64,000 nt of DNA from Pisolithus tinctorius (Eukaryota; Basidiomycota; Agaricomycetes; Boletales; Pisolithaceae). This document shows, piece by piece, positions 8,895 to 64,000 of the stretch (the stretch's first letter is position 1; the number at the start of each line of letters is the position of its first letter). Location of the stretch: the NCBI GenBank assembly GCA_024663395.1, contig JANFAH010000030.1, forward strand, positions 1 to 64,000, given 5' to 3'. The notes under the pieces are model-generated. The model did not search any database. It was not told where the DNA came from and worked only from the letters and a program-made list of their open reading frames with translations. The translations under genes and the position numbers were made by a program.

Positions 8895-9103
8895 AGGCAA
8901 AATGCGGCGAGGGTACAAAATGTGCAGCACAGGCATTATGTCAGCGTGGCCAGCTGGGGAAAAAAGCGCGGTGGCGCTACAAAACGCGCAGGAATAAATG
9001 TGCAGATGCAACATGCGTGGGAATAAAGGTGCAGATCTAACGCCATAGTGATGTGGCGATGCGACGGCGAAAAATAAATGTGCAGATTTTATGCCATACC
9101 CAT
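8895..9103. other. Intergenic, degenerate GC-rich short repeats
   Basis: Variants of a motif such as ATAAATGTGCAGAT recur four or five times between 8905 and 9090, with no coding potential. It lies just outside the duplicated NLR unit. Confidence 0.4.
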
Positions 9104-9273
9104 AAGAGTGGAGGTGCCCCACCAGGGAGTGAAATTGATAACCTGGAGCGGGTCGTCCAATTGTGTCGCTGCTGCCACGTGTCAGCTGTGCTAGCCCTCA
9201 CCCTTTCCTCAACGAGCTTGACACTCACCATCGAAACGAACTCGCAAAACTTCATACGAAACATACATTCTCA

Positions 9274-17190: not shown

Positions 17191-18117
17191 CCTCTCAGAA
17201 AGAGACCCTGCTGCTGACACACATGTTCGCACTGTGCCTGCGTGCTGATGATTACACAACGAATACTGAAATAATAGCCAAAGATCTGAGTCAGTCCACA
17301 GTCGTAAGTCAAATGTAACTTGTGCCAGACATTCCCTAATCTTGCCTCTTGGATAGCATTAATACACTCTTCAAGTCAATGGGTATGTTCTTACAGGCTT
17401 TTCCAGCGGACATTAGCCTCCCTCAAAGTTGCTAGAGGTTCAGCTAATTCCTTGGGTGTTTGTCAGGTGTTTGTGGTGAGTTTTCAGTTGAGAATATCAG
17501 TATTCAAACTCTGACTGCTCTTGTCTAATCAGAATATTGATCATCATTTAGTATGCATCCCCATTCCCCCCCCCTAGCTGTATTCTTGTCTCCCCCCTCC
17601 CCCCATGTATACATCTGCTTTGTATTCACACTACAATACTTGCTAGATCTCTCTGTTGGTAAGCATGCACGCTTTTCGGCGGAGTTTGAATCCCAGTCGG
17701 AGCTTAAATATTCGCCCACAAACTCACATTTGTCACGCTGTCGAAGTAGTACATGTCCTTCGTATACCATCAAAGCTCCTCGCAAGAGAACTCACTGGAG
17801 ATTGATATCCATGAGTGGTCTGTTCACTGGCACGGTCACCGTCTTCTTTTCCTGCCTCGCACTGATCACATATTTATGCGCCTTGTTGCATATGGTAAAG
17901 GTCATAAATGCTCGTTGACACTATTCAGCATGTAGATGAGGGTCGGCCGATCGCGCCTGTGAGGGGTTTACTGGACGTCAATGGTAATTACACCTAACAA
18001 TTGCTGTCTTACGAGGTCGTTTCGAGAGTGGGGGAGGCTATAAGACGTGAAATATTGATATTTCGTTGACCTGAGATACTCTCGAGATAGTTCAAGATGC
18101 TTCGACTAGTGCTCCCG
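17191..18117. other. Spacer between duplication units, possible upstream region of NLR copy B
   Basis: About 0.9 kb has no recognisable gene. It includes a strongly pyrimidine-rich stretch (17551-17606). Open frames here, such as 17553-17918, show no domain and have no counterpart upstream of copy A. Confidence 0.5.
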
Positions 18118-21100
18118 TAAGAGTGGAGGTGCCCCACCAGGGAGTGAAATTGATAACCTGGAGCGGGTCGTCCAATTGCGTCGCTGCTGCCACGTGTCAG
18201 CTGTGCTAGCCCTCACCCTTTCCTCGTCGAGCTTGACACTCACCCATCGAAACGAACTCGCAAAACTTCATACGAAACATACATTCTCAATGGGCAACTG
18301 TCAGTCAACGAGACGTCGTTTCAGGGCTGCGAATCCATTCAGCTCGGTAGGGCATCCATTCATGTCTGTCGATGGCATCTGTCGAATTACTCATTTCATC
18401 GCAATGACCAGCAAGCAGTCAAAGAACCGTCGCACTAGCGTTACGAACCGATCCAACCTCGACCCTTCTCCGGTATGTAGAAATACTGCTTCTTTGCGAT
18501 GGTATGTGTCAATTGACCAAAAATTATTCACAGGGGCCGTCCCAGAATGCTGTTGGGCATCTGCCCCTGACAATCGAGCTTCGAGCAGTGTCTCTCAGGG
18601 GCCAATGTCGGCCTTCTCTCATCCATCCGAGCCAAGTTACCCAGCTTCCATCACCGAAGACAGCACCCACACACATATTGGTCGGGTGACTTGCGAACAA
18701 AAAGAACAAGAGCAACTTCAGGCTGCTGCAACCCATGAAGTATGTAATCTACTCCCTTTTAATATTCCAAAGATTCTGAATGAGCTCGCTGAACAGACTC
18801 AGAGGTCAGCCATTGAGCCGACCTTCAGGATGGGTTCCATGTCGAATGCCGATGAAGACGCTATTCACCTTCCCGGTATTACAAGTGCAACATTCTCTGA
18901 GACTCAAAGCCCTTCCGATACGCATCTAAAACTGTTCAAAGATTTCAACCAAGTCGTTACCACTATTACTAAGGTAGGCGCTCATTTCTTCAAATAATCC
19001 GCTGACTGCACGCCAGCCCTAGATCCATCCCTATGCTCGAATGGCGCTGGGAATGTTAGCAGCCATTTCTCAGGTACGTTATCATTCTTGGATGCACTCC
19101 TCGTCTTACGTAGTCGTCCATAGATGTTTGTAGTTCAAGATATCCGAGACGAGTGGCTGTCCCACCTTCTGAGTACGATCAAAAAGGTTTACGAATTTCT
19201 CACGGAAGAAACTACCCCCAAGGACATGTCTGGGATGCGGGAAACCTTCGCGAAGATTGCACTGATGACCAGTGGTGTGGTGCAGTTCATCAAGAATTAT
19301 TCCACGACAGAGGAGTTCTGTATGTCCATCCACTTGCTCACCGCCCAAGCCTAATGAAACTTGGCATCAGGGAAGATATCCAGGAAAGACGTAGAATATG
19401 AGACACAGGACGTTTCCATTGTGTACACTCAGGCACTAGACGACCTGATGGAACAGTACCGGCACCGCAAAGATCGGGGCGTCCGGGTTGATGCGTTCTG
19501 CGTACTTGAAGACCTGGACTTGGACAGTTTGGTCCGTGCTAGAGGTGCAGGTCCCAACTGGACCAAGAAATGCCTCGACGGGACTAGAACTGAGATCCTT
19601 ACAGAGATTATCGACTGGATCTATGACACCGATGAAAATGTTCCGCACATTCTCTGGCTCCATGGGCAGGCTGGCAAAGGGAAGTCTGCTATTGCGCATA
19701 CAATCGCGCTGTGGTTTGAGAACGTTGGAGGGGTCGGGTCCTGTTTTTGCTTTTCCCGTGACTGGCAGGCCGAGCATCTTGAAGGAAAGATATTCAGAAC
19801 CATCGCGTGCGATTTGGCAGGACGTGATCCCGCATTCCAGCGAGCCTTAGCGGGTGCACTTGCGACGGATGGTTCTCTGAAGACCACTTCTGACGTCGCC
19901 CTCCAGTGGCAGAAGCTTATTTTGGAACCGTTGTACAAGGTCTCTGGTCATGTGGTTGGCAATGTGGTTATCGTTGTTGATGCATTGGACGAAAGCAGTC
20001 TGGAACAATCGCGGAGGGAGCTGTTGTCGGTGCTTGCGTCTGCGCAGGATGCTGGCCTACCTCGCAATGTTCGCATCCTCGTAACATCCCGTCCATTTCC
20101 TGATATCAAGTATGCACTCAGTGCCGCTCGGCATGTGAGGGCAGCCTCGTTGGACGACATCCATGAGGCATCAGAGGAAGATGATATCCATCTATATATT
20201 ATGAAAAGGTTGGGCCCTCTTCGGGATTTTGGACCCACCGAAGTCTATAGGATCGCCCAGAAGGCAGGAGGTCTATTTGAATGGGCGCATCTGGCTTGCG
20301 AGTTCGTAAACCTGGGTTGTACGGTCAAAAGTGGATCAGTCAAGGAACGCTTCGACAGTATCATGCTTCTTCCGTCAGGTGGACTACTGGATGCCATGTA
20401 CCAAGCGATCCTCAAAATGCCATCCCCAATGACCAGACCGCGCTCACGCAATTCCGCTCTGTCATGCAGCAGATCATTTCGACGCTCAAACCTTTGCATA
20501 TAGATGCACTTGGCAAGATGCGCAGTCGCTTCCCTGCTAATGAGGACCGTCATGACATGGTTGCCATTCTTGAATCCATGTCCCTGCTATTGAGTGGTGT
20601 TACAGACCGGTCTTCTCCTGTCCGACCACTACATGCGTCGTTCTATGACTTCCTCATTGACCCTGCACGGAGTCAGACATACTTTGTTGGGGAACCCAAG
20701 ATGTACAACCTTGCGTTCGCCTCATTGCGGATTCTTTCAAATGACCTGCGTTTCAATATATGTGGACTCGAAAGTTCATACTTCAGTAACTCCGAGGTTG
20801 CTGATTTGGAAAAGAGAATCAAGGAAAACATTCCACCCCATCTATCTTACTCATGCAGGTTCTGGGCCCAACATTTGGAGAGGACAGCATTTGACTTGGC
20901 ACTTGTGAAATTGGTGGAGGGGGTGCTTGGAAGTGAAAAGCTACTCTTCTGGCTAGAGGCTCTAAGCATTCTTGGTGTGTTGGGAGTTGCTACGGATGCT
21001 CTTGGGTGCACTGTGATGTGGTTGCTTATGAGTATTGAGTTTTCACATCTGATATCAACCAATGGGAAGTCAAAGACACAAAGTGGTTTTGATATGACCA

Positions 21101-21306
21101 TAGCATTGGCACAAGATGGGATAAAGTTCATTCACAATTTTAGCAGTGCAATCTCACACAGTGCACCACACCTTTACATCTCTGCACTGCCATTTACCCC
21201 TTTGAATACCATGGTAGCAAAAATGCTCATGCCAAAATTCTCATCCCTTGTTCAAGTTGCTCATGGAGGACTTGAAGATTGGCCAGCTGTCCAGCTTTCC
21301 TTACAG

Positions 21307-23831
21307 GGGCACAATGCTGAAGTCAGCTCAGTTGCATTCTCCCCTGATGGGAGGAGGATTCTCTTAGGCTCAACAGACAACACTGTGAGGGTGTGGGATG
21401 CTGAGAGAGGTGTTCAAATTGGCAGCCCTCTTGAGGGGCATACACAGTCAGTCACCTCAGTTGCATTCTCCCCTGATGGCAAGAGTATTGTCTCAGGCTC
21501 AAGGGACAAGACTGTGAGGGTCTGGGATGCTGAGGGAGGTGTCCAAATTGGCAGCCCTCTTGAGGGGCATGCAGAGTCAGTCTACTCAGCTGCATTCTCC
21601 CCTGATGGGAAGAGGATTGTCTCAGGCTCTTTGGACAGGACTATGAGGGTCTGGGATGCTAAGAGAGGTGTCCAAATTGGCAGCCCTCTTGAGGGGCATA
21701 CACAGTCAGTCACCTCAGTTGCATTCTCCCCTGATGGGAAGAGGATTGTCTCATGCTCAGGGGACAAGACTGTGAGGGTCTGGGATGCTGAGAGAGGTGC
21801 CCAAATTGGCAGCCCTCTTGAGGGGCATACAAAGTCAGTCTACTCAGTTGCATTCTCCCCTGATGGCAAGAGATTTGTCTCAGGCTCAAGGGACAAGACT
21901 GTGAGGGTCTGGGATGCTGAGAGAGGTGTGGAAATTGGCAGCCCTCTTGAGGGGCATACACAGTCAGTCAGCTCTGTTGTATTCTCCCCTGATGGGAAGA
22001 GGATTGTCTCAGGCTCACAGGACAAGACTGTGAGGGTCTGGGATGCTGAGAGAGGTGTCCAAATTGGTAGCCCTCTTGAGGGGCATACAGAGAAAGTCCA
22101 CTCAGTTGCATTCTCCCCTGATGGGAAGAGGATTCTCTTGGGCTCTTTGGACAACACTGTGAGGGTCTGGGATGCTGAGAGACATGCCCAAATTGGCAGC
22201 CCTCTTGAGGGGCATACAGCAGAAGTCTACTCAGTTGCATTCTCCCCTGATGGGAAGAAGATTGTCTCAGGCTCAAGGGACAAGACTGTGAGGGTCTGGG
22301 ATGCTGAAGAGGTGCCCAAATTGGCAGCCCTCTTGAGGGGCATACAGAGCCAGTCAACTCAGTTACATTCTCCCCTGATGGGCAGAGGATTGTCTCAGGC
22401 TCTTGGGACTACACTGTGAGGGTCTGGGATGCTGAGAGAGGTGTCCAAATTGGCAGCCCTCTTGAGGGGCATACAGAGCCAGTCAACTCAGTTGTGTTCT
22501 CCCCTGATGGGAAGAGGTTTGTCTCAGGCTCTTGGGACAACACTGTGAGGGTCTGGGATGCTGAGAGAGGTGTCCAAATTGGTAGCCCTCTTGAGGGGCA
22601 TCTACAGGAAGTCTACTCAGTTACATTCTCCCCTGATGGGAAGAGGATTGTCTCAGGCTCAGGGGACAAGACTGTGAGGGTCTGGGATGCTGAGAGAGGC
22701 ATCCAAATTGGCAGCCCTCTTGAGGGTCATACAAAGTCAGTCACCTCAGTTACATTCTCCCCTGATAGGAAGAAGATTGTCTCAGGCTCAACAGACTACA
22801 CTGTGAGGGTGTGGGATGCTGAGAGAGGTGTTCAAATTGGCAGCCCCCTTGAGGGGCATACTTGGTCAGTCAACTCAGTTGCATTCTCCCCTGATGGGAA
22901 GAGGATTGTCTCAGGCTCTTGGGACTACACTGTGAGGGTCTGGGATGCTGAGAGAGGTGTGAAAATTTGCAGCCCTCTTAAAGGGCATACAAAGGTAGTC
23001 TACTCAGTTGCATTCTCCCCTGATGGGAAGAGGATTGTCTCAGGCTCTTGGGACAACACTGTGAGGGTCTGGGATGCTGTGTCAAGTCCGGGCCTACTCC
23101 GACCAACTCTGATGCTATACAAGGTCTAGAGAGTGGTTCGGAAGCAAGTCTGACAGGGAAGAATGGAACTCCGACTGGCAGAGTGTTGGCAGAGACGAAG
23201 TCCACTGAAGACCAGGCGGAGCAGAGTGAGGGCATCGGGTTTAGCTCATGCACTACCCCCTTGCATGATCTCAGCCCTCGTATTTCAGAGGGAGAGTATG
23301 GACAGAAGGTCAGAGGTAACTCCAACAGATGGAAGACAGAATCAGAAGGAGTAGGAACTAAGTTGATATTCGTACTGAAGAACAGTGGAGTACAGTACAT
23401 GCTTTTATACTGCTATGGAGGTACAGTAATCGGAATCGGAACTGACATACAGAGACTCATAAATTTTCAAGTAAAATTTCCTGGATGATGAATGAAGGGT
23501 AGACGGAGGACATACAAATGGGTAACACAGAACATCCAGAAAAGGAAACAGTCCAGGCACTGGACCATGCAGTGAGCACGCTGCGGAGTACCTGACTGCG
23601 AAGGTAGTCACATGACCCCTCAGAGGACGGACTGCTTGGTCTGGTAGGAGAGCAACACAAGTCCGACAGCAGTCAGAGCAGAGATGGTTCACAACCAACA
23701 GAAGATGGGCGGAGTTGGTGCAGAGTGAGTGGATGACCGGTGGAAAAGGTTGCGGAGTGAGCAAAGACCTATGATGAATGCATGGTTGTGACATGCTGAG
23801 AGAGATGTGCAAATTGGCTGTCCTCTGGAGG
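21307..23831 (+). repeat. WD40 repeat array B, 14 repeats of 129 bp, split by an LTR
   Basis: After subtracting the 719-bp LTR and its target copy, the array is 1805 bp, which is exactly 14 times 129 minus the one lost base near 22308. The variable residues differ from array A at almost every repeat (for example [24 protein letters not shown]), while the scaffold codons are shared. The last repeat resumes after the LTR at 23799. Confidence 0.92.
23080..23793 (-). mobile_element. Solo LTR, family B, inside NLR copy B
   Basis: Begins TGTCAAG and ends TTGTGACA, 714 bp, and is closely similar to the Gypsy LTR at 3892-4606. It is flanked by a perfect 5-bp duplication TGCTG (23075-23079 and 23794-23798). 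Orientation follows the Gypsy element, so it is antisense to the NLR gene, and its TATA-like box (TATAAAAG on minus) lies near 23405. It interrupts WD40 repeat 14 between WDA and ER. Confidence 0.93.
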
Positions 23832-31420: not shown

Positions 31421-32640
31421 ATGAGTGTGTACGAACTCTCAATGCAGAAAGGTTGTTCTGCACTGCTACTGGCTGCGTCAGGCGGATAAATGAGAGGTTC
31501 ATTGCTGACACCTGTTCGGTGTCTACCTTCGCAGTGGGTTTTCCCTTCTGGCCTTATCCTTATTCATTATCATCATGCATTGTTGTCTGCATTGTGGCAG
31601 CTTCAGCACTGGTCGATGACTGTCTGCCAATAACAGGCCTGGAAACATGTGACTAACCCAATTTCTGTTCAGCTAACCCTGTTGTTGGTCTTTGCACTGA
31701 GGTTGGTCTCCTGTGCTCACGAGCAGGGTGTCAAGTTTGCTGAGCATGTGCATTTCTGCAGACGCAGCTGTACAGCGGCCTGCCACCTCAACTCCAGGAT
31801 CCCAGTAGTGGCCTCCCACAATCCAACAACACACATCCGATGCTATTACACTTGATGCCCATTCTGCTCACATGCTTCCTAGTCTGCAATAAACCTCCTA
31901 TCTCTGCCTTACTCAACTGTTGGTTCATCCTCCTATGGGGATGTAATTGCACATGTTCTCACATACCTCATCTCACCCCTACCTTCGGATGGCGCACACC
32001 AAACACCTGGAATAGATATACTGTCTTTCTCGAGAAAAATCAGTCTGGCACTCGTTGGAGTGTTCCTCGGCAGCATATGCATGGTGCTGATGGGAGTAAC
32101 AAGAGTAAGCAACTTCATACAGTAACAATGTTCCATTCCATGGAATGGGCCATCTTCTGTCCCTGTCAGGTCTTCCGAATTACCTCCCATAGCATGTCAG
32201 CCTCACTAATGCTACTTGTCATCACTCAGCCAATGGTGTGTTCTTCCATTTGGTCAGTGAAAGCATCTTACCCCATCTTTTCATCACAAGGGCATATACC
32301 TCCTTTCAACAGTGGTTCAACTGCGCACCATGTTTCCTCCATCAGCAGCCGCTGACACCTCCACAAGCGCATCTCCTAATGCCATCGAAATTAATCTCCC
32401 TTCTGCTCTTCTAGAATACACACTGAATAAGGGACTTTTCATCTGGTCATTCCTTGCCGGTGCAGAGAGATGCACACTGGATCGCTGGGCAGGGGCATTC
32501 TTTGGTGAAAATGAAGTTTTCCAGCTTGAGAGCAGTAGCTGACAAATGGCCCTAACTCTGAGACCGAGATTTTGACATGGTGGCAGAAGGGGAAAAAATG
32601 AGCAAGCAACACATGATTCAGTCACTTGTAAGCCTAAAAG
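31421..32640. other. Unassigned region downstream of unit B
   Basis: Several open frames (for example + 31840-32355) show no domain I recognise and no obvious splice-linked continuation. It may hold remnants of a gene upstream of Akr1 copy B, but I cannot support a call. Confidence 0.3.
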
Positions 32641-32649
32641 TGGGTCATC

Positions 32650-32890
32650 TGACATGTACATTTTGTCCTGAAACTGGGACTAACCAACATTGGCCAGTGG
32701 TCCCTAGGAGTGGGTAGGCCAGACTGTGAAGGTGGGGTCAGCTGACCTGGCTGGAGGGGGGACCCACTGCCTGAAAGTGGGGTCAGCCAACCTGGCTGGA
32801 GGGTGGACCCACCTCCTGGAAGTGGGGTCGGCCAACATGATTGGAGGATGGACCCACCTCCTGGAAGTGGGGTCTGACATGATTTTGTCA
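32650..32890 (-). repeat. Tandem repeat, roughly 45-50 bp, same family as 59.3-60.2 kb
   Basis: About five copies of a unit containing AAGTGGGGTCAGCCAAC and GGACCCACCTCCTGG. The reverse complement of the unit resembles the repeats at 59280-60190, so the two arrays lie in opposite orientation on either side of the 22-kb element. Confidence 0.7.
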
Positions 32891-34602: not shown

Positions 34603-37600
34603 AGGTAACCAATTTTCATAAGCATTTAGGCTGAAGTTTTTCTACAAATCATCCAAGCTAAAAGCCACTCAGACCAGGTCATCCCAGGGACATCTGGCCA
34701 TGTCCCAGGGCTATTTGCAGTGTGCAGGAGCTGGGATATCCCATAATCCCAGCCCTTTGGTAATATATTTTGGGCTGTCCCATGGCTGCCTTAGGTGTCA
34801 GGGGTCCTCAACTGCAAAAGTGCAGCTCACACCCACATTGGAATGTCAGCTTTCAATCACAAACACATTGCTGTTATGATCATCATCCAGACAATGAGCA
34901 TACCTATCAAACTGGGGGATGGATGAAAACATTACCCTCCCAAAAAACACTTATTATACATATTAAGTGATATATGAAGACTACTGGGCAATGAGTGTGT
35001 TTGTGTGATGCCATCTGCAGAATTGTACAATGTGGATGAAGGTGAACCTGTCAATTACTAAAGGCTAATGGATTCAGAATCCCCCCAATAGTACTGTAAG
35101 TTTGTGTTTGTTACAACAGTCACTCCTCACTAAGATCAGTACTTTTGTTTCCAACTTACAGTTGAGGTACATACATACATAGTATCAAAATGATGCTCTT
35201 GTGGGGGATGAGCATGTGAGTGCCCCACTGGCATAGGATGCTATATGATCTGATTGGCATGGGGCCCCATGCCCAGGACAGTGGGATGCCCCTTGATAGC
35301 TTTGGAGGCCACTGTGGGACATCCCACCCCCCCCCTTCCATAGGCCAGTGGGATGTCCCATGATAGCTTCAGAGGCTATGGTGGGACATCCCATCCCCCT
35401 TCCATAGGCCATTGGGATGTCCCATGGTAGCTTTGGAAGCTACTGTGGGACATCCCACCCCCCTTCCAGAGGTCAGTGGGATGTCCCATGATAGCTTCAG
35501 AGGCTACTATGGGACATCCCATCCCTCTTCCATAGGCCAATGGGATGTCCCATGGTAGCTTTGGAAGCTACTGTGGGATGTCCCACCCCCCCTTCCAGAG
35601 GTCAGTGGGATGTCCCATGATAGCTTCAGAGGCTACTGTGGGACATCCCATCCCCCTTCCATAGGTCAGTGGGATGTCCCATGATAGCTTCAGAGGCTAT
35701 GGTGGGACATCCCATCCCCCTTCCATAGGCCATTGGGATGTCCCATGGTAGCTTTGGAAGCTACTGTGGGACATCCCACCCCCCTTCCAGAGGTCAGTGG
35801 GATGTCCCATGATAGCTTCAGAGGCTACTGTGGGACATCCCATCCCCCTTCCATAGGTCAGTGGGATGTCGAATGATAGCTTCAGAGGCTATGGTGGGAC
35901 ATCCCATCCCCCTTCCATAGGCCATTGGGATGTCCCATGGTAGCTTTGGAAGCTACTGTGGGACATCCCACCCCCCTTCCAGAGGTCAGTGGGATGTCCC
36001 ATGATAGCTTCAGAGGCTACTATGGGACATCCCATCCCTCTTCCATAGGCCAATGGGATGTCCCATGGTAGCTTTGGAAGCTACTGTGGGATGTCCCACC
36101 CCCCTTCCAGAGGTCAGTGGGATGTCCCATGATAGCTTCAGAGGCTACTGTGGGACATCCCATCCCCCTTCCATAGGTCAGTGGGATGTCCCATGATAGC
36201 TTCAGAGGCTATGGTGGGACATCCCATCCCCCTTCCATAGGCCATTGGGATGTCCCATGGTAGCTTTGGAAGCTACTGTGGGACATCCCACCCCCCCCTT
36301 CCAGAGGTCAGTGGGATGTCCCATCATAGCTTCAGAGGCTACTGTGGGACATCCCATCCCCCTTCCATAGGCCAATGGGATGTCCCATGGTAGCTTTGGA
36401 AGCTACTGTGGGATGTCCCACCCCCCCTTCCAGAGGCCAGTGGGATGTCCCATGATAGCTCCAGAGGCTACTGTGGGACATCCCACCCCTCCTTCCATAG
36501 GTCAATGGGATGTCCCATGGTAGGTTTGGAAGCTACTGTGGGACATCCCACCCCCCCTTCCAGAGGCCAGTGTGATGTCCCATGATAGCTTCAGAGGCTA
36601 CTGTGGGACATCCCACCCCCCTTCCATAGGCCATTGGGATGTCCCATGGTAGCTTTGGAAGCTACTGTGGGACATCCCACCCCCTTCCAGAGGTCAGTGG
36701 GATGTCCCATGATAGCTTCAGAGGCTACTATGGGACATCCCATCCCTCTTCCATAGGCCAATGGGATGTCCCATGGTAGCTTTGGAAGCTACTGTGGGAT
36801 GTCCCACCCCCCCTTCCAGAGGTCAGTGGGATGTCCCATGATAGCTTCAGAGGCTACTGTGGGACATCCCATCCCCCTTCCATAGGTCAGTGGGATGTCC
36901 CATGATAGCTTCAGAGGCTATGGTGGGACATCCCATCCCCCTTCCATAGGCCATTGGGATGTCCCATGGTAGCTTTGGAAGCTACTGTGGGACATCCCAC
37001 CCCCCCCTTCCAGAGGTCAGTGGGATGTCCCATCATAGCTTCAGAGGCTACTGTGGGACATCCCATCCCCCTTCCATAGGCCAATGGGATGTCCCATGGT
37101 AGCTTTGGAAGCTACTGTGGGATGTCCCACCCCCCTTCCAGAGGCCAGTGGGATGTCCCATGATAGCTCCAGAGGCTACTGTGGGACATCCCACCCCTCC
37201 TTCCATAGGTCAATGGGATGTCCCATGGTAGGTTTGGAAGCTACTGTGGGACATCCCACCCCCCTTCCAGAGGCCAGTGTGATGTCCCATGATAGCTTCA
37301 GAGGCTACTGTGGGACATCCCACCCCCCCTTCCATAGGCCAATGGGATGTCCCATGGTAGCTTTGGAAGCTACTGTGGGACATCCCATCCCCCCTTCCAG
37401 AGGTCAATGGGATGTCCCATGATAGCTTCAGAGGCTACTGTGGGACATCCCATCCCCCTTTCATAGGCCATTGGGATGTCCCATGGTAGCTTTGGAAGCT
37501 ACTGTGGGACATCCCATCCCCCCTTTCATAGGCCAATGGGATGCCCCATGATAGCTTTGGAAGCTACTGTGGGACATCCCATCCCCCCTTCCAGAGGTCA

Positions 37601-37800
37601 ATGGGATGTCCCATGATAGCTTTGGAAGCTACTGTGGGATGTTCCACCCCCCCCTTCCAGTGGCCAGCGGGATGTCCAATGATAGCTTCAGAGGCCACTG
37701 TGGGACATCCCACCCCCTTTCTTGAGGCCAGTAGCATCTTTCATCATAGCTTTGGAGGTTACTGGGGGCCATCCCCCCAATTCTGCACACTCCTGGTATA
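34603..37800 (+). repeat. Left inverted arm of the 22-kb element
   Basis: Outer unique part 34603-35270, then the satellite array. The outer part matches the reverse complement of 55860-56580. It is interrupted by short indels but clear at GCTGGGATATCCCATAATCCC and ATATATTTTGGGCTGTCCCA. Confidence 0.85.
35272..37770 (+). repeat. Hairpin satellite array, left arm (about 40 monomers)
   Basis: Monomers of about 62 bp each contain a fold-back: GGGATGTCCCA pairs with TGGGACATCCC around a centre that in many copies is itself palindromic (GTAGCTT-TGG-AAGCTAC). An example is 35414-35456. Linkers alternate between CCCCCTTCCAGAGGTCAGT and CCCCTTCCATAGGCCATT types, giving higher-order blocks. One block variant recurs near 35518, 36020 and 36730. 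Copies are highly homogeneous and lack CpG. Confidence 0.93.
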
Positions 37801-37868: not shown

Positions 37869-40800
37869 CTATCTACGTGGTCTTTTACTTGGAGATGATG
37901 GGGGATCCATATCCAATACATCTAATTCCCAGTCATCTGCCCATGAGAACTCTGTCAATGACATCTCACTGAACTGTTGGTGATATTCATCTGCAAGAGC
38001 AAATTCCTCAGCAACACACAGCAAGTCATCATCAAGCATTTCATCATCCCCATCATCATTCTCAGATTCCAAGTCCTCCCATCCCACCTCTTCATTTCTG
38101 TCCATGTCCATGGTGAGTGGTGCACAATCCATATTCCTCCATTCTTCAACCCTTGCCTCCCATCTCTCATCAGCACCTCCTGGAAAGTCCCTCATTTTTT
38201 CCTGCCACAAGAGACTCAGACTTGCTAGTGCTGAAGCCCTGTGGTCCAGTTCATATGCAAGATCTGCACCTGATTTTCATTCAATTATCTTAATATATTC
38301 AATGACACAACAGCTCTCTTACCTGCATCCACTCTGCATTTCTCCAGCCGTCTCCATTCCTCTGAGTGCCATTCCATCAAGGTTTTTCTTTCATACAGGA
38401 GCCTCCTTTCCTCCTCCTCACACCTCTTCAGCTCAAGGAGTGACCTGATCCCCAAGCGCACCCTTTCATCAGCTAACCAAGCTGGTGGCAATCCCACAGA
38501 ATCATCCTCAAGACCAATATCCTGCCAGATATCATCATCCACATCTAGTTTGAACAAGCCATCCCTTTGGATCAGTATAGGTGCTATGGCCCCTTGAGGG
38601 GCTTTCCCCTGGCGGATGAGAGCTACCAACTGCAAACACAAATTATTGTAGGAGGTAGAAAGCTTGACAATTCCTGGTTCTCGTCGCCGGACAGATCCTT
38701 CCACATGGATTTGAAGTTTTTTTTCTTCAAAGCAGTCAACCACAAGAGGCAAATGCTTGAGAGCACCACTTACCACTAACTGTCTGTCGGTAAGACCGTT
38801 CTAGTCTCTCTAATTCAAACTTTCGTTGACACAGACGGTCTCGGATACGCTTCTTGATTGCCAATGCATGCATACGCAGCTGAATGCTTTGAATTCAATC
38901 AACTTATAAATCTAGAAGAGGAAGAACCACCAGCCTGAAGAAAGGAACTATTCTGGAGCCTGGAAAGCTCTGCAAGCCCATCTATTCCAAGGCTTGCCCT
39001 CTGTCTTTGTGAAGCTTGCTTGAAATGTATAATCTTTTTGTGACACTCTGCTAACTGTATATTTAAATTTGTCATATCAGCCCCTCCTCGGAGAAGACCC
39101 TTCTCCAGTTCATCTAGTCTAGCTTCATAAGTTTCCAGTGATTTCTGAGTTGCCATCATTTGCATTATAAAATTTTCTGTGGCTTTTGCAGAGTGCCCTT
39201 AAATTACTGTCAGCTCACAGCAAGAGGAATCACTTATACAGGAGGCTTACGAGATGCTGGCTTGGTTTGTACTGAAACCTGAGCCTCCCATTCAGCTTGA
39301 AGTGTCTGAATATTGATTCCAGATTTTCTTAGACCCTTTTTTGCAGAAGTCTTTTTTTCTTGACAGTGGTTCCAGCGCCGCAAAAGCCACTGGCCAACAC
39401 CAGTAAGACTCTTCATGTCAAGATAGCGCACCTGGGAGTCAATAACAAAGAGGCGTTGATGATACTGAATAAAATATTAGCCTGCATTTTGTGACACAAC
39501 TAATTGCATACCCCAGAAACTCGCAGAGATGGTATTAGTGGCTTAATTGAACTCCAAAATCGCTCACAACCCTCTCCATCAGAAAGCCCAAACCCTTCTC
39601 GTTTCCGAGGGTGATAGATGAGCTGGCAAGCCCATTGATGACCAAAGGCATGAAAGACTGATATAGCAAAAGAAATTCGGGGTAGAAATGGCCCAAGGTA
39701 GCCCCACTTTCTGCAGCTCTGTTCAAGCTGACAGCCTATGTCATATAACAGCCCAATGTGAAAATCATCAGGGAGGTGACTGAATAATGATTTGATGAGG
39801 GCAAGTGCATAGTGTTGCTTCTCCCCTGCTGAAGTCATGTTGGCAAGGTGAATAACACGATCATGACGACAGAGTAGGGCCATAACTCCAGTATCTGAAA
39901 AGAATTGGGTACTTGCCTATACCACCATCAGAATATTGCAGACAGGTTAAATGACTAAGCTCACTTTCTGACGTCTCTCATCAGCTGCAGTGAAGGATTC
40001 ATTACAACCCTTGAGGACTGATGGTGGTATCCTCATACCCTGCTCAAACCTATCCTCATCTCCACAATTCTTCTTAGAAGACTGACCACTCCTCTTTTGC
40101 ATTGATGCCTTTGTCCTTCTCAAACCTTCAACCTCACATTCCATAGTATCAATGTCTTCTTGTGACAGAAAAACTGAACCTGTAGGGTTTACTGGGTCAT
40201 CCTGTTGACTTCTTCTACGTTTCTGGGTAAAGCAAGCATCAATGCAAACAATTGCATCAGGATCAGAGGAGCTAGGACCCAAGACTATTTAGTAACATAG
40301 GATTATGTATATGCACCAAGAAACATACCTATTATTATTTTTCCAGTTGCGACTACCAAAGCATAATGGACAACGCTTTCGTAGGTATTCCGAAGGCCAT
40401 GTCCTTGAGCTTGAGACATCTGGAGGGTGGTGAGAGGATGATGGAACTGCAGGGAGGATGTCTGCTGGTGGGGTTGCAGCACTTTCCAAGTGTTGTTGAA
40501 CATATTCATCAACTGAGATTTCCAGGATGCAATACCAGTGGTATGCATTACTAAACCTTCGACGTATACCTTCCTGTAAGTATCATTAGCAAACATCATT
40601 AATAGATATGGATGGAAATAGTTAAAGGCATGCATTGACTTGATAAACACAACACAAGATCAGATCTACAGACATGTGCACATTCATACAACCACAGTGC
40701 AATCATTCATTAGACACAAACAACAAAGTCCCAATAGGTTAGACATACACAAAACCTAGTCTCATAATCACAACATAAACGAAACAGTGGATACAGATAA

Positions 40801-52599: not shown

Positions 52600-55545
52600 A
52601 TCCTACTGGCCTCTATGGAGAGGGGTGGAATGTCCAACTGGCCTTCAGAGGGGGGAGTGGGATGTCCCACAGTAGCTTCCAAAGCTACCATGGGACATCC
52701 CATTGGCCTATGGAAGGGGGGGGGACATCCCACAGTATCCTCCAAAGCTATCATGGGACATCCCACTGGCCTCCAGAGAGGGGGGTGGGATGTCCCACAG
52801 TAGCCTCCAAAGCTATCATGGGACATCCCACTGTCTATAGAAAGGGGGTTGGGATGTCCCATAGTGCCTCCAAAGCTAGCATGGGACATCCCACTGGCCT
52901 CCAGAGAGGAGGGTGGGATGTCCCACAGTAGCCACTGAAGCTATCATGGGACATCCCACTGGCATCTGGAAGGGGGATGGGATGTCCCACAGTAGCCTCT
53001 GAAGCTATCATGGGACATCCCACTGGCATCTGGAAGGGGGGTGGGATGTCCCACAGTAGCCTCCAAAGCTATCATGGGACATCCCACTGCTATGGAAGGG
53101 GGGTTGGGATGTCCCACAGTAGCCTCCAAAGCTATCATGGGACATCCCACTGTCTATGAAAGGGGGTTGGGATGTCCCATGTAGCCTCCAAAGCTAGCAT
53201 GGGACATCCCACTGGCCTCCAGAGAGGAGGGTGGGATGTCCCACAGTAGTCTCTGAAGCTATCAAGGGACATCCCACTGACCTCTGGAAAGGGGGGTTGG
53301 ATGTCCCACAGTAGCCTCCAAAGCTATCATGGAATCCCACTGTCCCTGGAATGGGGGTTGGGATGTTTCACAGTAGCATCAGAAGCTATCATGGGACATC
53401 CCACTTGCCTCCAGAGATGGGGGTGGGATGTCCCAGTAGCATCTGAAGCTATCATGGGACATCCCACTGACCTCTGGAAGGGGGTTGGATGTCCCAGTAG
53501 CCTCCAAAGCTATCATGGGACATCCACTGTCCCCTGAGGGGGTTGGGATGTCCCAGTAGCCTCCAAAGCTATCATGGGACATCCCACTGGCCTCCAGAGA
53601 GGGGGTGGGATGTCCCATGTAGCCTCTGAAGCTATCATGGGACATCCCACTGCCTCCTAGAGGGGGTGGGATGTCCCACAGTAGCCTCTGAAGCTATCAT
53701 GGGACATCCCTTGGCTCCAGAGAGGGGTGGGATGTCCCACAGTAGCCTGAAGCTATCATGGGACATCCCACTGGCCTCCAGAGAGGGGGGTGGGATGTCC
53801 CACAGTAGCCTCTGAAGCTATCATGGGACATCCCATTGTCCTATGGAAAGGGGCTGGGATGTCCCACAGTAGCTTCTAGCTATCATGGGACATCCCACTG
53901 GCCTCCAGAGAGGGGGTGGGATGTCCCACAGTAGCTCTGAAGCTATCATGGGACATCCCACTGTCCTCCAGAGAAGGGGGTGGGATGTCCCACAGTAGCC
54001 TCCAAAGCTATCATGGGACATCCCACTGGTCTCCAGAGAGGGGGTGGGATGTCCCACAGTAGCTCTGAAGCTATCATGGGACATCCCACTGTCCTAGGAA
54101 AGGGGGTGGATGTCCCACAGTAGCTCTGAAGCTATCATGGGACATCCCACTGTCTCCAGAGAGGGGGTGGGATGTCCCACAGTAGCCTCCAAAGCTATCA
54201 TGGGACATCCCACTGGCCTCCAGAGAGGAGGGTGGGATGTCCCACAGTAGTTCTGAAGCTATGGGACATCCCACTGACCTCTGAAGGGGGTGGGATGTCC
54301 CAGTAGCCTCCAAAGCTATCATGGGACATCCCACTGTCCAGAGAGGGGGTGGGATGTCACAGTAGCTCTGAAGCTATCATGGGACATCCCACTTGCCTCC
54401 AGAGAAGGGGGTGGGATGTCCCACAGTAGCTCTGAAGCTATCATGGGACATCCCATTGTCCTATGGAGGGGGTGGGATGTCCCACAGTAGCTTCTGAAGC
54501 TATCATGGGACATCCCACTGGCTCCAGAGAGGGGTGGGATGTCCCACAGTAGCCTCCAAGCTATCATGGGACATCCCACTGGCCTCCAGAGAGGGGGGTG
54601 GGATGTCCCACAGTAGCTCTGAAGCTATCATGGGACATCCCACTGGTCTCCAGAGAGGGGGTGGGATGTCCCACAGTAGCTCCAAGCTATCATGGGACAT
54701 CCCACTGTCCTATGGAAAGGGGGCTGGGATGTCCCACAGTAGCTCTGAAGCTATCATGGGACATCCCATGTCCTATGAAAGGGGGTGGGATGTCCCACAG
54801 TAGCTCTGAAGCTATCATGGGACATCCCACTGGCTCCAGAGAGGGGTGGGATGTCCCACAATAGCCTCCAAAGCTATCATGGGACATCCCACTGGCCTCC
54901 AGAGAGGAGGGTGGGATGTCCCACAGTAGCCTCTGAAGCTATCATGGGACATCCCATGTCCTATGGAAAGGGGGGGGATGTCCCCAGTAGCCTGAAGCAT
55001 CATGGGACATCCCACTGCCTCCAGAGAGGGGGTGGGATGTCCCATGTAGCATCTGAAGCTATCATGGGACATCTCATGACCTCCATAAGGGGGTGGGATG
55101 TCCCAAGTAGCCTGAAGCTATCATGGGATCCCACTGGCTCCAGAGAGGGGATGGGATGTCCCATAGCCTCCAAAGCTATCATGGGACATCCCACTGGCCT
55201 CCAGAGAGGGGTGGGATGTCCCACAGTAGCCTCTGAAGCTATCATGGGACATCCCATTGTCCTATGGAAAGGGGCTGGGATGTCCCACAGTAGCTTCTGA
55301 AGCTATCATGGGACATCCCCTGGTCTCCAGAGCAGGGGTGGGATGTCCCACAATAGCCTCCAAAGCTATCATGGGACATCCCACTGTCTATAGAAAGGGG
55401 GCTGGGATGTCCCACAGTAGCCTCTGAAGCTATCATGGGACATCCCACTGGCCTCCAGAGAGGGGGGTGGGATGTCCCACAGTAGCCTCCAAAGCTATCA
55501 TGGGACCTCCCACTGGCCTCCAAAAATGGGTGGTGGGATGTCCCA
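52600..55545 (-). repeat. Hairpin satellite array, right arm (just under 50 monomers)
   Basis: The same monomer as the left arm in inverted orientation, for example GGGATGTCCCA-CA-GTAGCTT-CCA-AAGCTAC-CA-TGGGACATCCC at 52659-52701. Unlike the left array, many copies carry 1-4 base deletions in the linker or centre, while the GGGATGTCCC and GGGACATCCC boxes are mostly kept. Confidence 0.92.
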
Positions 55546-55555
55546 TCATTGGCTC

Positions 55556-55672
55556 TTGGTTGTTCTACATAGATGACCTTGATGAACATGTGACTAAAGG
55601 TGGGATTGAACCAGCAGTCTCCTGGAGTTGACCTTGTGGTTTAATCACTGAGCTATATGGTTTGAGTACTAA
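55556..55672 (-). mobile_element. tRNA-derived SINE-like insertion
   Basis: On the minus strand an A-box-like TAGCTCAGTGATTAA and a B-box-like GGTTCAATCCC are spaced as in a tRNA (about 55660 and 55605). The acceptor arms do not pair, so it is not a working tRNA. It has no partner in the left arm, so it was inserted after the arms formed. Confidence 0.6.
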
Positions 55673-56589
55673 TGTCAGTTGCTTGGGGGTTAGATCAGAA
55701 CTTTGGGAATAATTATCCATGAAGAGTAATACACAGAATGCACCATCTCCAACAGACTTCAGTGGTCTTTAGCAACACAAGTCCACCCTTCCTTTGAGAA
55801 TCAACAACGTTCAGTCTTCTGCCCATCCTGGCTGGATTGGTATTTGAAGCACATGGTGGTCCACTGGAGGGCCTTACAGCCCAGGGTCATAATGGGACAT
55901 TGGGCACCACAGCAATCAGATTACATAACCCCTTTGGACAGTGGGGTTCTCACATGCTTGTGCCCCACAATAGTGTCATGTATTGTGCTACAATCTATTC
56001 CTTGGCTTGGAAGGTCTTCCACTCATCCTCATTGAATGCATTTAGTATGATCTTATTAATGTGTACTCCTTCTATAAGCAATGGAACTTACTCATGGGAC
56101 AGTGCTGAATCCATTAAAATTTATCACAATGATGCAAGGCTCACTTCCAGAAGTATTGTATGATTCTGGAGATGACACCTCACAATCACACTGATTTCCC
56201 ACTTCAAATTTGTGCATAATAAGTGTACCAAATGGTTTTGGAAAGTCAGTGGCTGCCACATACATAGGCCCCTACTTTGCCAGGTATTCTCATCATCCTG
56301 GATAATTGTGACTGCTTTGGTTTCTTGGTCAGAAGTGGGATTTCAGTGTGAATATGAGCTGCACTTTTGCAGCTGAGGACCCCTGACACCTAAGGCAGCC
56401 ATGGGACAGCCCAAAATATATTACCAAAGGGCTGGGATTATGGGACATCCCAGCTCCTGCACACTGCAAATAGCCCTGGGACATGGCCAGATGTCCCTGG
56501 GATGACCTGGTCTGAGTGGCTTTTAGCTTGGATGATTTGTAGAAAACTTCAGCCTAAATGCTTATGAAAATTGGTCACCTAGCTTCGTT

Positions 56590-57310
56590 ATGATTAGCAC
56601 CACTTTCCCACATCCCCCTTGCCCACCTTGCCCCCAGAAAAAAAATTGGTATGTCATTTTCTCTTTGTCTCATTTCATTGTGCTTAGGGCCATCTTCCCA
56701 CATCCCCCTTGGCCCCCTTGCCCTCAGAAAAAAAATGATGTGACTTTCAGGCTTGTCTCCCCCCCTCCACTAATCAATTTTTCCTTTTGTCTAGCTTCAT
56801 TGTGCTTAGTGCTACATTCCCACATCCCCCTTGCCTGCCTTTCCCCCAGAAAAAAAATTGGTATGTCATTTCCTCTTCATCTTGCTTCATCATGCTTAGG
56901 GCCACATTCCCACATCCCCCTTGCCCCCCTTGCCCAAAGAAACAAAATGGTATGTGAGTTTCAGGATCATATCCCCCCCTCCACTAATGACTTTTTCCTT
57001 TCATCTAGCTTTGTCATCCTTGGGCCATCTTCCCACATCCCCCTCCTTTTGTCTAGCTTTGCCCTACTTAGTGCCAAATTCCTGCATCCCCCTTCCCCCC
57101 TTGCCCCCAGAAACACAATCAGTATGTCATTTTCTTTTTGTTGAGCTTTGTCATGCTTAGGGCCATCTTCCCACATCCCCCTCCCACCCTTGCCCCAAGA
57201 AAAAAAATGGTATGTGATTTTTCAGGCTCATCTCCCTGTGTCCACTAATGAATTTTTCCTTTCATCTAGCTTCATCATTCTTAAGGCCATCTTCCCACAT
57301 TACTCTATAC
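56590..57310 (+). repeat. Tandem repeat of about 100-130 bp, around six to seven copies
   Basis: Units contain TTCCCACATCCCCCTTGCCC, an A-run (CAGAAAAAAAA), GGTATGTCATTTTC and a C/T-rich piece with CTAGCTTCATTGTGCTTAGGG. Long open frames (for example + 56590-57144) come from the repeat and are not taken as genes. Confidence 0.85.
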
Positions 57311-57480
57311 ACATGTATGTATCCATATAATATGTATGTAACTATGTAACATGCATATCTACATTCATAATTCCATTATATTCCAAGTCAGCTGGGGTTT
57401 ACCCACATGCTGTCATTTTCTCTCCTAAGTATTCTGATTGCATGGCAGCCTTACTGATCTTGTACCACTAGACTACCACA

Positions 57481-59083
57481 GCAAGGACAAAGCAAACTGC
57501 CAAGAAGAATGGTGGTCACAAGGCTTCCAGAGTCTCTCTGGTCACTCTACAGGCCAAGGAGCAACAAGCTGCCCAGGCTGCCACTGCCAATGCCATCAGG
57601 ACTCCCCTTCAAGTCAAGAAAAGAAGGTTAAGGAATTCTGTGAGTCTGCTCTCTCATCTCATCATCATCCTCACTTCTTCTTCCAGTTCTGTCTCATGTG
57701 TAGGGATGGGGGCACTTTATGGGAGTGTGATGTCATGGGCTGCTGGAGGGTTGTCTGCAACAAGTGTCTGGTGGTCCCTGAGGATTCTCTTCAACAGCTC
57801 ACTCAGCCTGGTGTCACCTTTAGGTATGTCTCACCCACCACTCTATTTCATCACCTCAAGTCCTTTTGTTTCTCCTCAGGTGTGTCAGTTGTCATTGGAA
57901 GAGGACCAGACATGGAACACCTCAGCCCTACTATGTAAGTCCATCCAATCTTCCACCATCCATCCTAACTCCAAATACAGGGCTTCTATCTGGGTGACAA
58001 GCATGTCCTCAGCAAGCCCCCTGCTGTCATAGGCACATTCCAGCATGCCACCACCTCTGAAATGGCTACCCTCTCCACAGCCATCATCCACCTTCACCTG
58101 GATGGCTTGACCCTTGACCCTGACCCTGTCCATATCATCCAATCCATGATACAAGGGTATTTCAAACAACAGGGCACTTACCATTTTGCATAGTTGTCTT
58201 ACAACTTGTGCACTCAGGAGTCTGGGGCTGCCTATGAAACTGCAGCTCAACAGCTCTCTTCCTTCCTGGCCCCTTATGCAAGGGTGGTTGTCTTCTTGAC
58301 TACCCATAGTGAAGAACAAAGGGGGGATCTCTTTGCTGGAAGTAGGGATGGGCAGGTAATTGCCTCAAAGGTCTCTGAGGTGAGTCACCACTTTCTCAAT
58401 CTTTACTCTCACCTCACCATCTCCAGGTGTTAGAGGCTCTCCTCACACCCCTCTCCAAGGTTGTTGAGGGAGGTGACCTCATCTTCCTGGTGTGTGGATA
58501 TCTGGTCAAGCATCAGGAGAGTTTCCAAGACCTCAAGTCAGCCATGAGCCAGTAAGTGTCCTCTCAATCTGAGCACATATTTATTGCTCATCACCATTCT
58601 AGCTTCAAGCCAAGGTCAATGCTCCTCTTTGATGCAGACAAGTTACTCCCTGTCAACACCATTCCATTCCTCATGAGTGTTTTGGACCTTACCATCATCC
58701 AATGCTTTCAACAGATGGATAAGACAGTTAAGGTTGCCTTCAAGGACTGTGGAGTGCTGGGCAGACACTCAAATATCATCCTCATGTATTGGGGGTCTTC
58801 AGGAGGGAGGATATTGGTGGAAAGGTACATTTGGACTGACAAGTTCATCAAACCTTGGGGTAGGACTTGCCTGATCAATGCCCTCAGTGTGGGATCATAC
58901 AGCAATGGCTGGCTGCTAGTGCTGATTCAACTTATTCCTATCAGTGCCAGTATCCTGATTGTGGGAAGGACTTGGAGGGGATTGCATTGCCACCCAAAAT
59001 ATATACCATCTCTATGCCTCAAGGAGCCGAAAAAATTGCCAGATGGAAAAAAGTCATCTGCATGTTTGGTAGAAAATTTGTAA
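57481..59083 (+). pseudogene. Histone-H3-tail mimic fused to PHD-like zinc cluster protein (decayed)
   Basis: Exon 57481-57639 begins ARTKQTAKKNGGHKASR, almost the N-terminal tail of histone H3 (ARTKQTARKSTGGKAPR). A GTGAGT intron leads to exon 57687-57823 with FCLMCRDGGTLWECDV, GCWRVVCNKCLVVPEDS, and via a split codon to exon 57880 with RCVSCHWKRTRHG. The Cys/His spacing resembles a PHD finger. Later parts include VVFLTTHSEEQRGDLFAG (58290) and a zinc-ribbon-like CPQCG ... CQYPDCGKDLEG (58880-58980). A TAG at 58189-58191 (HFA-stop-LSYN) and uncertain joins suggest a pseudogene. The start codon is not found, and the 5' exon probably lies upstream. The function is unknown. Confidence 0.62.
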
Positions 59084-59279: not shown

Positions 59280-60190
59280 TTTGCTGAGGTTGGGTTGGGT
59301 TTAGACGAGGTCCACCAACACCACTACTGGGGGATGGGCCATGCTTTGGCCATCCTCAGGGGAGGATGACCAATACAACTTTCAAAGGCCCTGTCACCAC
59401 TTTGAGGGAGCTCACTCATGGTTAGCTGGGGTTGGCTGATACCACTTCCAGGGGCTGGGAACCACTTCCAGGGAGAGGGACCATGCTGGGGCTAGGTGAG
59501 CCAACACCACTTCCAGGGAGCCCAGCCATGGTTAGGTGAGGTTGGCTGACATCACATTCAGGGTACTGGCCCATGCTGAGGCTAGGTCAGCCAACATTGA
59601 TTTCAGGGAGCTCCCTCATGGTTAAGTGAGGTTGGCTGAAACCACTTCCAGGGCAAGGGCTCATGCTGATGCTAGGTCAGCTGACACCACTTCCAGGGAG
59701 CTCAGCCATGGTTAGGTGAGGTTAGCTGACATCACTTTCAGGGTACTGGCCCATGCTGAGGCTAGGTCAGCCAACATCACTTTCAGGGAGCTCCCTCATG
59801 GTTAGGTGAGGTCCACTGAAACCACTTCCAGGGAGAGGGCTCATGTTGATGCTATGTTGGCTGAAACCACTTCCAGGGAGAGGGCTCATGTGGAGGCCAG
59901 GTTGGCTGACACCACTTCCAGGGAGAGGGCTCATGCAATGGCTAGGTTGGCCAGCATCACTTTCAGGGAGCCCCCTCATGGTTAGGTGAGGTTGGCCAAA
60001 ACCACTTCCAGGGAGAGGGCTCATGTGGAGGCTAGGTCAGCTGACACCACTTCCTGGGAGAGGGCTCATGTGAAGGCTAGGTCAGCTAACATCACTTTCA
60101 GGAAGCTCCCTCATGGTTATGTGAGGTCAGCTGAACCCACTTCCTGGGAGAGGGCTCATGCTGATGCTATGTTGGCTGAAACTGCTTCCC
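59280..60190 (+). repeat. Tandem repeat of about 60 bp, roughly 15 copies
   Basis: The unit resembles GCTAGGTCAGCTGACACCAC then TTCCAGGGAGAGGGCTCATG, with alternating sub-types (AGCTCCCTCATGGTTAGGTG). It is the same family as 32650-32890 but inverted. Open frames on both strands here are products of the repeat. Confidence 0.88.
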
Positions 60191-60695
60191 AGGAGAGGGC
60201 TCATGTCCTGAAGGCTATGACAATAGCCTTCAGGGATGCAGAATTGAGCACACTGCAAACAGTTTGGGAAGTGGCAGGAGAGGAAAGGGCCACACTGATT
60301 ATATCAGTGGCCTGGACAGCATTTTCAGCCCTTCCAGAGGTCATACTAGAGACTACTCTCCTTCTTCCAGTAGAAGAAAGCTGGTAAGGATGTCCTACTT
60401 TGAGCCTTTCCTTAATCTAGCTGGAGCTCTTTGATGACCCTGGCCACAGTAGAGCTCCCCAGACCAGTTGTAGAGGAGATTTGATGAGTAGAAATGCCAG
60501 ATTCAGAAAGAAGATGGATATTTACTCTAGCAGAGGCAAAAATGCATTTTATGGTGAAATAGAGCTAGCTGAGTGGGACCCAAGCCATTTTTATGGCTCA
60601 GGATTATGTAAATTACATAATCAGGCATGGTTGAAGCACATAATCCTTCAGAAGTTGTCAAATCCTTATGTTATTTACTAAATAATGACTGACAA
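60191..60695. other. Unassigned region
   Basis: A short open frame (60481-60681) has no recognisable domain. I see nothing else to annotate. Confidence 0.3.
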
Positions 60696-63038: not shown

Positions 63039-64000
63039 ACAACATACATGCAACAATATGCTAACTAAACTATGTATTTGGCAACAAAATCTTAATACCT
63101 CTCATATAGCCCTACACTCACTAATCAATAGCCCTATAGCAGATGAATGGGACATCATATCCCTACAGGAACCACTGATTGACCAAATAGGCAACACATG
63201 TGCCAACACCCACTGGAGAGTGGCATACCCAATGACCAAGGCAACACTAAACTCCAAGCCCTGAGTGGTAACCCTAATTAATTCCTGAATAAGCACTAAC
63301 ATATGGGAACAGGTACCATTCCCATCCCCAGACATTGTCATAATTTGCATGAGAACTACAAGGGGCACTTATGTGCTCTTCAACATATACAATGACTGCA
63401 AACATGACCACACTGTGGACATGCTGAATGTGTTCCTCACCTCTGAAATCAGAAACATATGCCCAACTGAGAACAATCAAATGCTGTGGCTAGGAGACTT
63501 CAACAGACACCACCCACTATGGGATGAAGACCACAACCATCATCTGTTTACAGCTGCAGCCCTCGCATCAGCTCAGAAGCTGCTTGAATTAACTGTGGAC
63601 TATGGTATGATACAAGCTCTACCTAAAGGGATACCTATGCTCCAGTCTTCATCCTTGGGTAACTGGACATGCCCAGACAATGTCTTTTGCACCAAATCAG
63701 CAATGGAAAGACTCGTCAGCTGTGACATGAGACCAGGGGAATGAGGACCCAACAGTGACCACCTACTGATACTAACATGCATCGAAACCACATTAACATT
63801 GTCCTTGTCTCCTTCTGCTTACAATTACTGCAAAGTAGATTGGAAGGGCTTCAACAAGACTCTAAAAACTGAACTTTCCAAAATCAGCCCCCCAGTGGAG
63901 ATAACCAGCAAGGAAGAATTCCAAAGGAATGCAAGAGGAATTGAGACAGCTCTACAGATGACACTAGAGAAGGAGGTACCAAGGTCTCACCCCCACCCAC
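63031..64000 (+). pseudogene. LINE ORF2, endonuclease domain (partial, window edge)
   Basis: The ATG at 63031 overlaps the end of ORF1. The endonuclease/exonuclease/phosphatase fold is shown by CIWQQNLNTSHIALHSL, DIISLQEPLIDQIG (63150-63190) and LWLGDFNRHHPLWDED (63485-63530, containing the GDFN catalytic motif). TGA codons at 63262-63264, 63286-63288 and 63742-63744 stand where the family commonly has arginine. The frame otherwise stays the same to the window edge. Confidence 0.82.

Follow-up and report, generated by a model that had tools for sequence, protein, structure and literature searches.

The proteins described here begin with a near copy of the histone H3 tail and form a multicopy family in the fungus Pisolithus tinctorius. 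One gene copy lies in a 64,000-nt stretch of its DNA (contig JANFAH010000030.1; hereafter the window, whose positions are the coordinates used below). Judged by their sequences, these proteins are H3-tail mimics, i.e. an H3-like N-terminus, probably exposed, on a non-histone protein. Divergence comparisons show that the copied tail is under strong constraint. The tail is followed by a PHD-type zinc finger and a predicted CHAT/caspase-like domain, and in P. tinctorius the gene is mostly found inside transposons that also encode a KDZ transposase and a TET/JBP enzyme.

The gene copy in the window

The window copy consists of the following parts:

about 57478–59083, + strand: mimic gene with six exons
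57478–57639, + strand: exon 1, with the would-be start, a tail resembling H3 1–20 (57481–57540) and a basic linker
57687–57823, + strand: exon 2, with six of the eight Cys of a PHD-type zinc finger, assigned from Cys invariance and Protein Data Bank (PDB) profile matches among other evidence
57880–57934, + strand: exon 3, with the final two finger Cys (CVSCHW) and a PQPYY motif
57981–58379, + strand: exon 4, first half of the predicted CHAT/caspase-like domain with its His motif FLTTHSEEQRGDLF, the fold being taken from a relative's prediction
58427–58551, + strand: exon 5, a strand of the predicted CHAT/caspase-like domain and its Cys motif IFLVCG, assigned in part from conservation
58603–59083, + strand: exon 6, the remaining part of the predicted CHAT/caspase-like domain and a C-terminal zinc-ribbon-like CPQC...C..C cluster

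The tail reads ARTKQTAKKNGGHKASRVSL, in which 13 of 20 residues are identical to H3 1–20, in register and including K4, K9 and K14. Exons 2 and 3 encode CLMCRDGGTLWECDVMGCWRVVCNKC...CVSCHW, an eight-Cys finger. An earlier note on this DNA had described a mimic of the H3 tail attached to a PHD-like zinc cluster, with the K4-, K9- and K14-like lysines largely in place, and both descriptions are confirmed. That note covered 505 bases; absent from it were the CHAT/caspase-like domain, the pseudogene state, the gene end at ∼59083 and the TET/JBP partner gene, and its interpretation as a whole is partly supported, with the self-binding, H3 methyltransferase modification and diversion of chromatin factors that it raised being putative.

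The family member in the window has decayed into a pseudogene: it carries ACA at 57478–57480 where related copies carry ATG, a TAG stop in frame at 58191–58193 in exon 4 and a frame shift near 58865 in the last exon. A DNA search of the 92.5-Mb P. tinctorius genome scored 40 places (of 46 candidates), including the window; one, on contig C27, is 100% identical to the window copy and the 38 others are 68–70% identical. Some copies may be alleles since the assembly may include both haplotypes, while repeat counts given here and below are lower bounds.

Intact copies and distribution of the family

In 18 of the 19 main-type P. tinctorius loci (L010–L028), the first coding exon starts with ATG and encodes MVKTKQTAKK. 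In ten of the 19 every splice site is intact and the frame stays open over 447 codons, which is not so in the remaining nine. The gene model, which is based on open frames and conservation, has six exons, introns of 45–60 bases and GC–AG borders at the first intron. The H3-like stretch is thus exonic and stands at the start of the first coding exon, so that an intronic origin, which the earlier note had named as grounds for doubt, is rejected. Intact copies begin with MVKTKQTAKKTTGGRAPRVSL, relatives with MARTKQTARKVTGDKAPRV or MARTKQTARKSNGGSAPK, and a third P. tinctorius subfamily (L039 and L040) reads MARTKQTAKKVTGGHAPRLNL.

Three protein searches yielded 163 different family proteins from Boletales (Pisolithus species, many Suillus, Rhizopogon vesiculosus and Leucogyrophana mollusca) and Agaricales (Mycena species), together with metagenome rows. 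If any ungapped 18-mer with a BLOSUM62 score of 35 or more against H3 1–18 (self-score 90) is counted as the tail, it is present in 129 of the 163. The expectation that homologues keep the segment thus holds for these 129, and the other 34 are below threshold: some have a shortened or altered tail (e.g. MVKTKQTAKTTGGRAPRV or MTAKKSNGG), some are labelled partial and some are long or short models in which no tail appears. A Met directly precedes the tail in 116 of the 129 proteins and is always followed by A, V, T or P, so that the segment stands at the N-terminus in intact homologues, a point that the earlier note had wanted confirmed. All 116 could plausibly expose a free N-terminus.

Three Mycena proteins (P0153, P0155 and P0156, from M. 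vitilis and M. polygramma) have a modified tail (e.g. MARTKNTARGGAAGGGGKGRVGKVSAQKSTGGKAPRVDL) in which a Gly/Lys-rich insert, recalling the H4 tail, splits the H3-like start from the later part. In P. orientalis, annotated models apparently read 5′ minisatellite repeats as coding sequence for an N-terminal extension ahead of the tail; public gene models can therefore hide the true start. A 5′ minisatellite with ∼76-bp units and AAAAGGTATGT-like motifs is also present at about 1800–2820 of P. tinctorius locus L023.

Conservation of the H3-like tail

A PDB search with the protein of a clean relative returned 133 matches (E ≤ 10), of which the best 60 are all histone H3 or H3-derived (top E 0.0024), and a profile of 62 family members matches H3 at 2.3e-8. 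A chance match is rejected because the tail is conserved across genera and matches H3 in both the PDB and the profile searches. The similarity is restricted to about the first 45 residues, beyond which come a zinc finger and a predicted CHAT-like fold; the proteins are not true H3 histones, as no histone fold lies behind the tail.

Among the 129 tails, which include closely related copies, the residues kept are G12 (128), K4 (125), K9 (125), T6 (115), L20 (115), T3 (114), A15 (114), P16 (111), G13 (108), A7 (107), R17 (107), T11 (97) and Q5 (94). Position 1 is A in 73 and V in 36, and position 2 is R in 78 and K in 28. The departures from H3 lie at R8, which is mostly K (81), at S10, which is S in only 51, at K14, retained in only 31, and at position 18, which is V or I in 115. 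The tails have therefore retained the methyl-lysine positions and have mostly lost K14 and K18, the acetyl-lysine positions. The 92 unique 20-mers have a similar pattern (K4 in 88 and K9 in 90).

We then compared regions of the protein in an alignment (A3) of 62 of the 147 proteins then collected, picked by length and diversity, in which 893 pairs are distant (<30% identity in the CHAT region). Mean identity in these pairs is 61% in tail residues 2–18 (795 pairs with data), 5% in linker residues 22–45 (652), 37% in the finger (496), 28% in region 105–146 (764), 25% in the CHAT region (859) and 35% in the C-terminus (457). Comparison of the main with the third P. tinctorius subfamily gives pN/pS values of 0.26 in the tail (19 codons) and of 0.42 and 0.37 in two other exons, which are rough as synonymous differences are near saturation. 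One histone H3 gene of P. tinctorius (L041, on C39) reads MARTKQTARKTTGGK, with Thr at position 10 as in the main-type mimic; it has an intron apparently after codon 13, which the mimic lacks.

Zinc finger and predicted CHAT/caspase-like domain

The eight Cys of the finger have PHD spacing and are invariant in 13 diverse aligned sequences. Its best PDB profile matches are PHD fingers of SP140, AIRE, PHF21A and ATRX, all H3 readers, and RING fingers of RNF4 give an additional, weak match (E 0.011). In Pfam, the PHD family is matched by 5 of 62 members at E ≤ 0.1 (best 0.0049), and one member reaches 15.3 bits against a cut-off of 24. The finger shares the C..C-DGG-L..C motif with PHDs of SP140, AIRE, PHF21A and the ATRX ADD domain, but differs from those of SP140, AIRE and PHF21A in having Cys rather than His as fifth ligand; its H3 binding is putative. 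In ADD domains, the fifth zinc ligand is Cys.

The region behind the finger is predicted to adopt a CHAT/caspase-like fold. A His and a Cys follow successive strands and are invariant where a letter is present (H226 in 58 of 58 sequences and C276 in 59 of 59); from topology rather than residue alignment, we infer that they are equivalent to the catalytic His and Cys of clan CD peptidases. The predicted fold and the placement of both residues are common to clan CD (CHAT/caspase) peptidases; the mimic protein differs in having no sequence-level match to known members, and its proteolysis is putative. No PDB chain matches the CHAT region at E ≤ 10, no CHAT or caspase family is among the 18 Pfam families listed for family members, and Pfam gives only a single sub-threshold DUF for a clean family protein. 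Foldseek returned sweet-taste receptors and other Rossmann-like proteins, which we take as unspecific because most have rmsd ≥14 Å (one, 9nov, has 6.1 Å over 167 columns). The protein closes with the zinc-ribbon-like cluster.

In the AlphaFold model of a relative, tail residues 1–10 have pLDDT <50 and no confident placement in the PHD groove, the binding that the earlier note had proposed to model. An earlier run with 22 alignment rows gave pLDDT 63.

Transposon vehicle in P. tinctorius

The evidence for linkage comes from P. tinctorius DNA. Two elements could be delimited, one of 17,130 bp on C11 with target duplication GATCATA and one of 16,393 bp on C17 with TGGAGGT (7 bp); both have CA..TG ends, and their inverted termini of ∼104 bp are 84–85% identical. 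The element's minus strand encodes (i) a KDZ transposase (PF18758, 4.1e-28) with CxC2 (PF18803, 5.9e-15), the query being two joined frame pieces of the C11 copy, and (ii) a TET/JBP protein (PF12851, E 3.2e-9; score 36.7 bits, cut-off 34.9; profile positions 64–163 of 164); its plus strand encodes the mimic. A further CxC2-looking frame matches no Pfam family.

TET/JBP lies beside all 40 scored KDZ places (53 candidates), in two cases by a short 77% match, and the mimic lies downstream in the same order at 38 of the 40, which bears out the KDZ linkage considered in the earlier note. Its distance from KDZ is within 10 kb at 30 places, within 20 kb at 37 and 29.7 kb at one; a diverged element on C42 (85% in KDZ DNA) is among those with the mimic. 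Conversely, 14 of 52 mimic places compiled by hand from genome matches, including the window copy, have no listed main-type KDZ within 30 kb upstream. The 19 main-type loci show 17 different right flanks; therefore, the element has moved. Its right-end sequence occurs at least 45 times exactly and at least four times with one mismatch.

From their ends and gene content, on which the name rests, the main-type elements are probably TET+ Kyakuja-type KDZ transposons. TET+ Kyakuja elements of Agaricomycetes, Boletales included, have 7-bp duplications and CA..TG ends (Kojima 2025, PMC12730594). Common to these and the P. tinctorius elements are the KDZ transposase, the TET/JBP gene, the 7-bp duplication and the 5′-CA..TG-3′ ends described in that account. 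Two differences are evident: the P. tinctorius element carries the H3-tail mimic gene, whereas the abstract, sections 3.2 and 4.2 and passages of PMC12730594 describe no histone-like gene (its main text names neither Pisolithus nor PHD, and the word 'histone' appears four times, always on another subject), and it has ∼104-bp inverted ends, whereas two Laccaria Kyakuja families are stated there to lack them, a trait that is not clearly defining. The P. tinctorius genome has at least 150 scored TET/JBP (PF12851) matches (186 candidates), nearly all above the curated cut-off. Ten long or odd family gene models contain neither KDZ nor TET and include one sub-threshold CDC45 match (P0120).

Possible functions

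We consider it somewhat probable that the mimic is cargo of TET/JBP-bearing Kyakuja (KDZ) transposons and works in their favour by interfering with chromatin silencing in the host; the TET/JBP neighbour makes such a role natural. Met removal would free a tail that host factors binding H3 residues 1–20 could mistake for H3. PHD fingers contact mainly H3 residues 1–8. Because K9, G12, A15–R17 and L20 are kept nearly as strictly as K4, the tail would address outside H3-tail factors, those of K9 methylation above all. The likeliest targets would be an H3K9 methyltransferase and its readers, as K9, G12 and A15–R17 are kept, and also H3K4 enzymes. The decoy may titrate these factors or keep them beside the caspase-like domain, the finger may anchor the protein on unmodified H3 or on the protein's own tail, and the TET/JBP enzyme would remove DNA methylation while the mimic blunts the histone arm.

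A more tentative possibility is that the protein is a bait protease, in which the tail captures host silencing proteins acting as K4/K9 readers or writers, the caspase-like domain cuts these, or H3 itself, at the transposon, and the TET/JBP partner erases DNA methylation. If so, one mobile element would carry a two-armed anti-silencing kit.

The main rival, rather less probable, is autoinhibition, with the tail acting as a pseudo-ligand of its own finger and the caspase-like domain held off until nucleosomal H3, or K4 methylation of the mimic, displaces the tail. The finger, closest to H3-reading PHDs, does stand directly behind the tail and linker, and BAZ2B offers a known case of a PHD inhibited by histone mimicry within the same molecule (PMC5663869). 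However, the near-equal conservation of residues beyond K4 and the low pLDDT of residues 1–10 argue against it. Autoinhibition and the decoy role may be compatible.

It is unlikely that the tail instead lures a single enzyme, binding the active site of an LSD1-like H3 demethylase or a methyltransferase and bringing that enzyme to the transposon instead of titrating it away. The conserved residues 1–20 are about the length of H3 peptide that LSD1–CoREST needs. SNAIL1 binds LSD1–CoREST through H3 mimicry (cited in PMC5663869). No feature singles out LSD1, however, and conservation of K9 and G12 fits H3K9 enzymes at least equally well. A domesticated host gene family (e.g. incompatibility or cell-death proteins with caspase-like domains) carried on transposons by chance would agree with the many copies in many species, the caspase-like fold and the 14 places lacking a listed main-type KDZ nearby, but is improbable given the fixed three-gene order, the target duplications and the distinct right flanks. 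Finally, a borrowed nuclear-import or chaperone signal of H3 type, with no role in chromatin signalling, is very improbable: H3 tails do serve as nuclear localisation signals, but such signals tolerate great change and would not need near-exact K4, K9, G12, P16, R17 and L20.

Other features of the window

Other elements and repeats surround the window copy:

9099–14061 and 18114–23079: 5-kb direct duplication (92%), about 14 near-identical 129-bp units in each
32610–32874, − strand: Kyakuja-type end with 45-bp repeats, 92% identical over 130 bp to the right end of the main element
34603–37778 and 52633–56580: two large inverted blocks, with 63–64-bp minisatellite units plus an arm of about 430 bp with 82% identity
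38288–40288, − strand: KDZ transposase of another family (PF18758, 3.7e-46 at 39503–39916)
56782–57300, strand not assigned: 5′ tandem repeats with units of about 89–90 and 261 bp and GTATGT motifs
59460–60206, strand not assigned: 3′ minisatellite of 45-bp units, about 66–74% identical to the 45-bp array of the main-type transposon
63289–63741, + strand: LINE-type endonuclease (PF14529, 9.5e-10)

The KDZ family of the window has at least 44 genome matches (40 of 98 candidates scored), and one of the 52 mimic places lies within 50 kb at only four of the 44: the window (19.7 kb), C28 (6.4 kb, opposite strand), and C52 and C11 (44–45 kb). We thus reject the window mimic as part of the window's own KDZ element. 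The LINE endonuclease and this KDZ transposase appear to belong to elements other than that of the mimic, and the LINE linkage considered in the earlier note was not seen beyond the LINE piece within the window. The right end of the mimic's element was not found in the window, where the single right-end match is that at 32610. A variant of this end, GGCTTACAAG, occurs at no fewer than 36 genome places and, with positions compared by eye, does not pair with main-type ends; such ends apparently belong to another element family. Main-type elements have a different minisatellite at the position matching the 56782–57300 repeats. The 129-bp unit consensus looks WD40-like by eye, and ten other window frames match no Pfam family.

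Known histone mimics and significance

Iyer et al. in 2014 reportedly linked TET/JBP to KDZ elements. Searches of the open literature gave no report of a transposon-borne H3-tail mimic, although Iyer et al. 2014 may mention one. Known cases of histone mimicry involve short motifs in viral and host proteins. Influenza NS1, G9a and SNAIL1 (cited in PMC5663869) likewise have an H3-like segment in a non-histone protein, but the present mimic differs from them, as cited there, in being ∼20 residues long, N-terminal, on a transposon and joined to its own reader-type finger and predicted caspase-like domain. BAZ2B also combines an H3 mimic and a PHD within one protein; its mimic, however, is an internal, positively charged linker for which the passages of PMC5663869 describing it give no ARTK, while that of the P. 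tinctorius family is N-terminal. The architecture of tail, finger and predicted caspase-like domain appears to be new, being matched by no Pfam family and by no report found in searches of the open literature.

In brief, a protein encoded on a mobile element starts with nearly all of the H3 tail, which has been kept across wide divergence in two fungal orders. If the decoy or bait reading is true, transposons would counter the histone arm of silencing besides DNA methylation. The natural tail variants, in which K4 and K9 are kept, K14 and K18 are mostly lost and S10 is free to vary, amount to a mutational scan, run by evolution, of the requirements of H3-tail factors.
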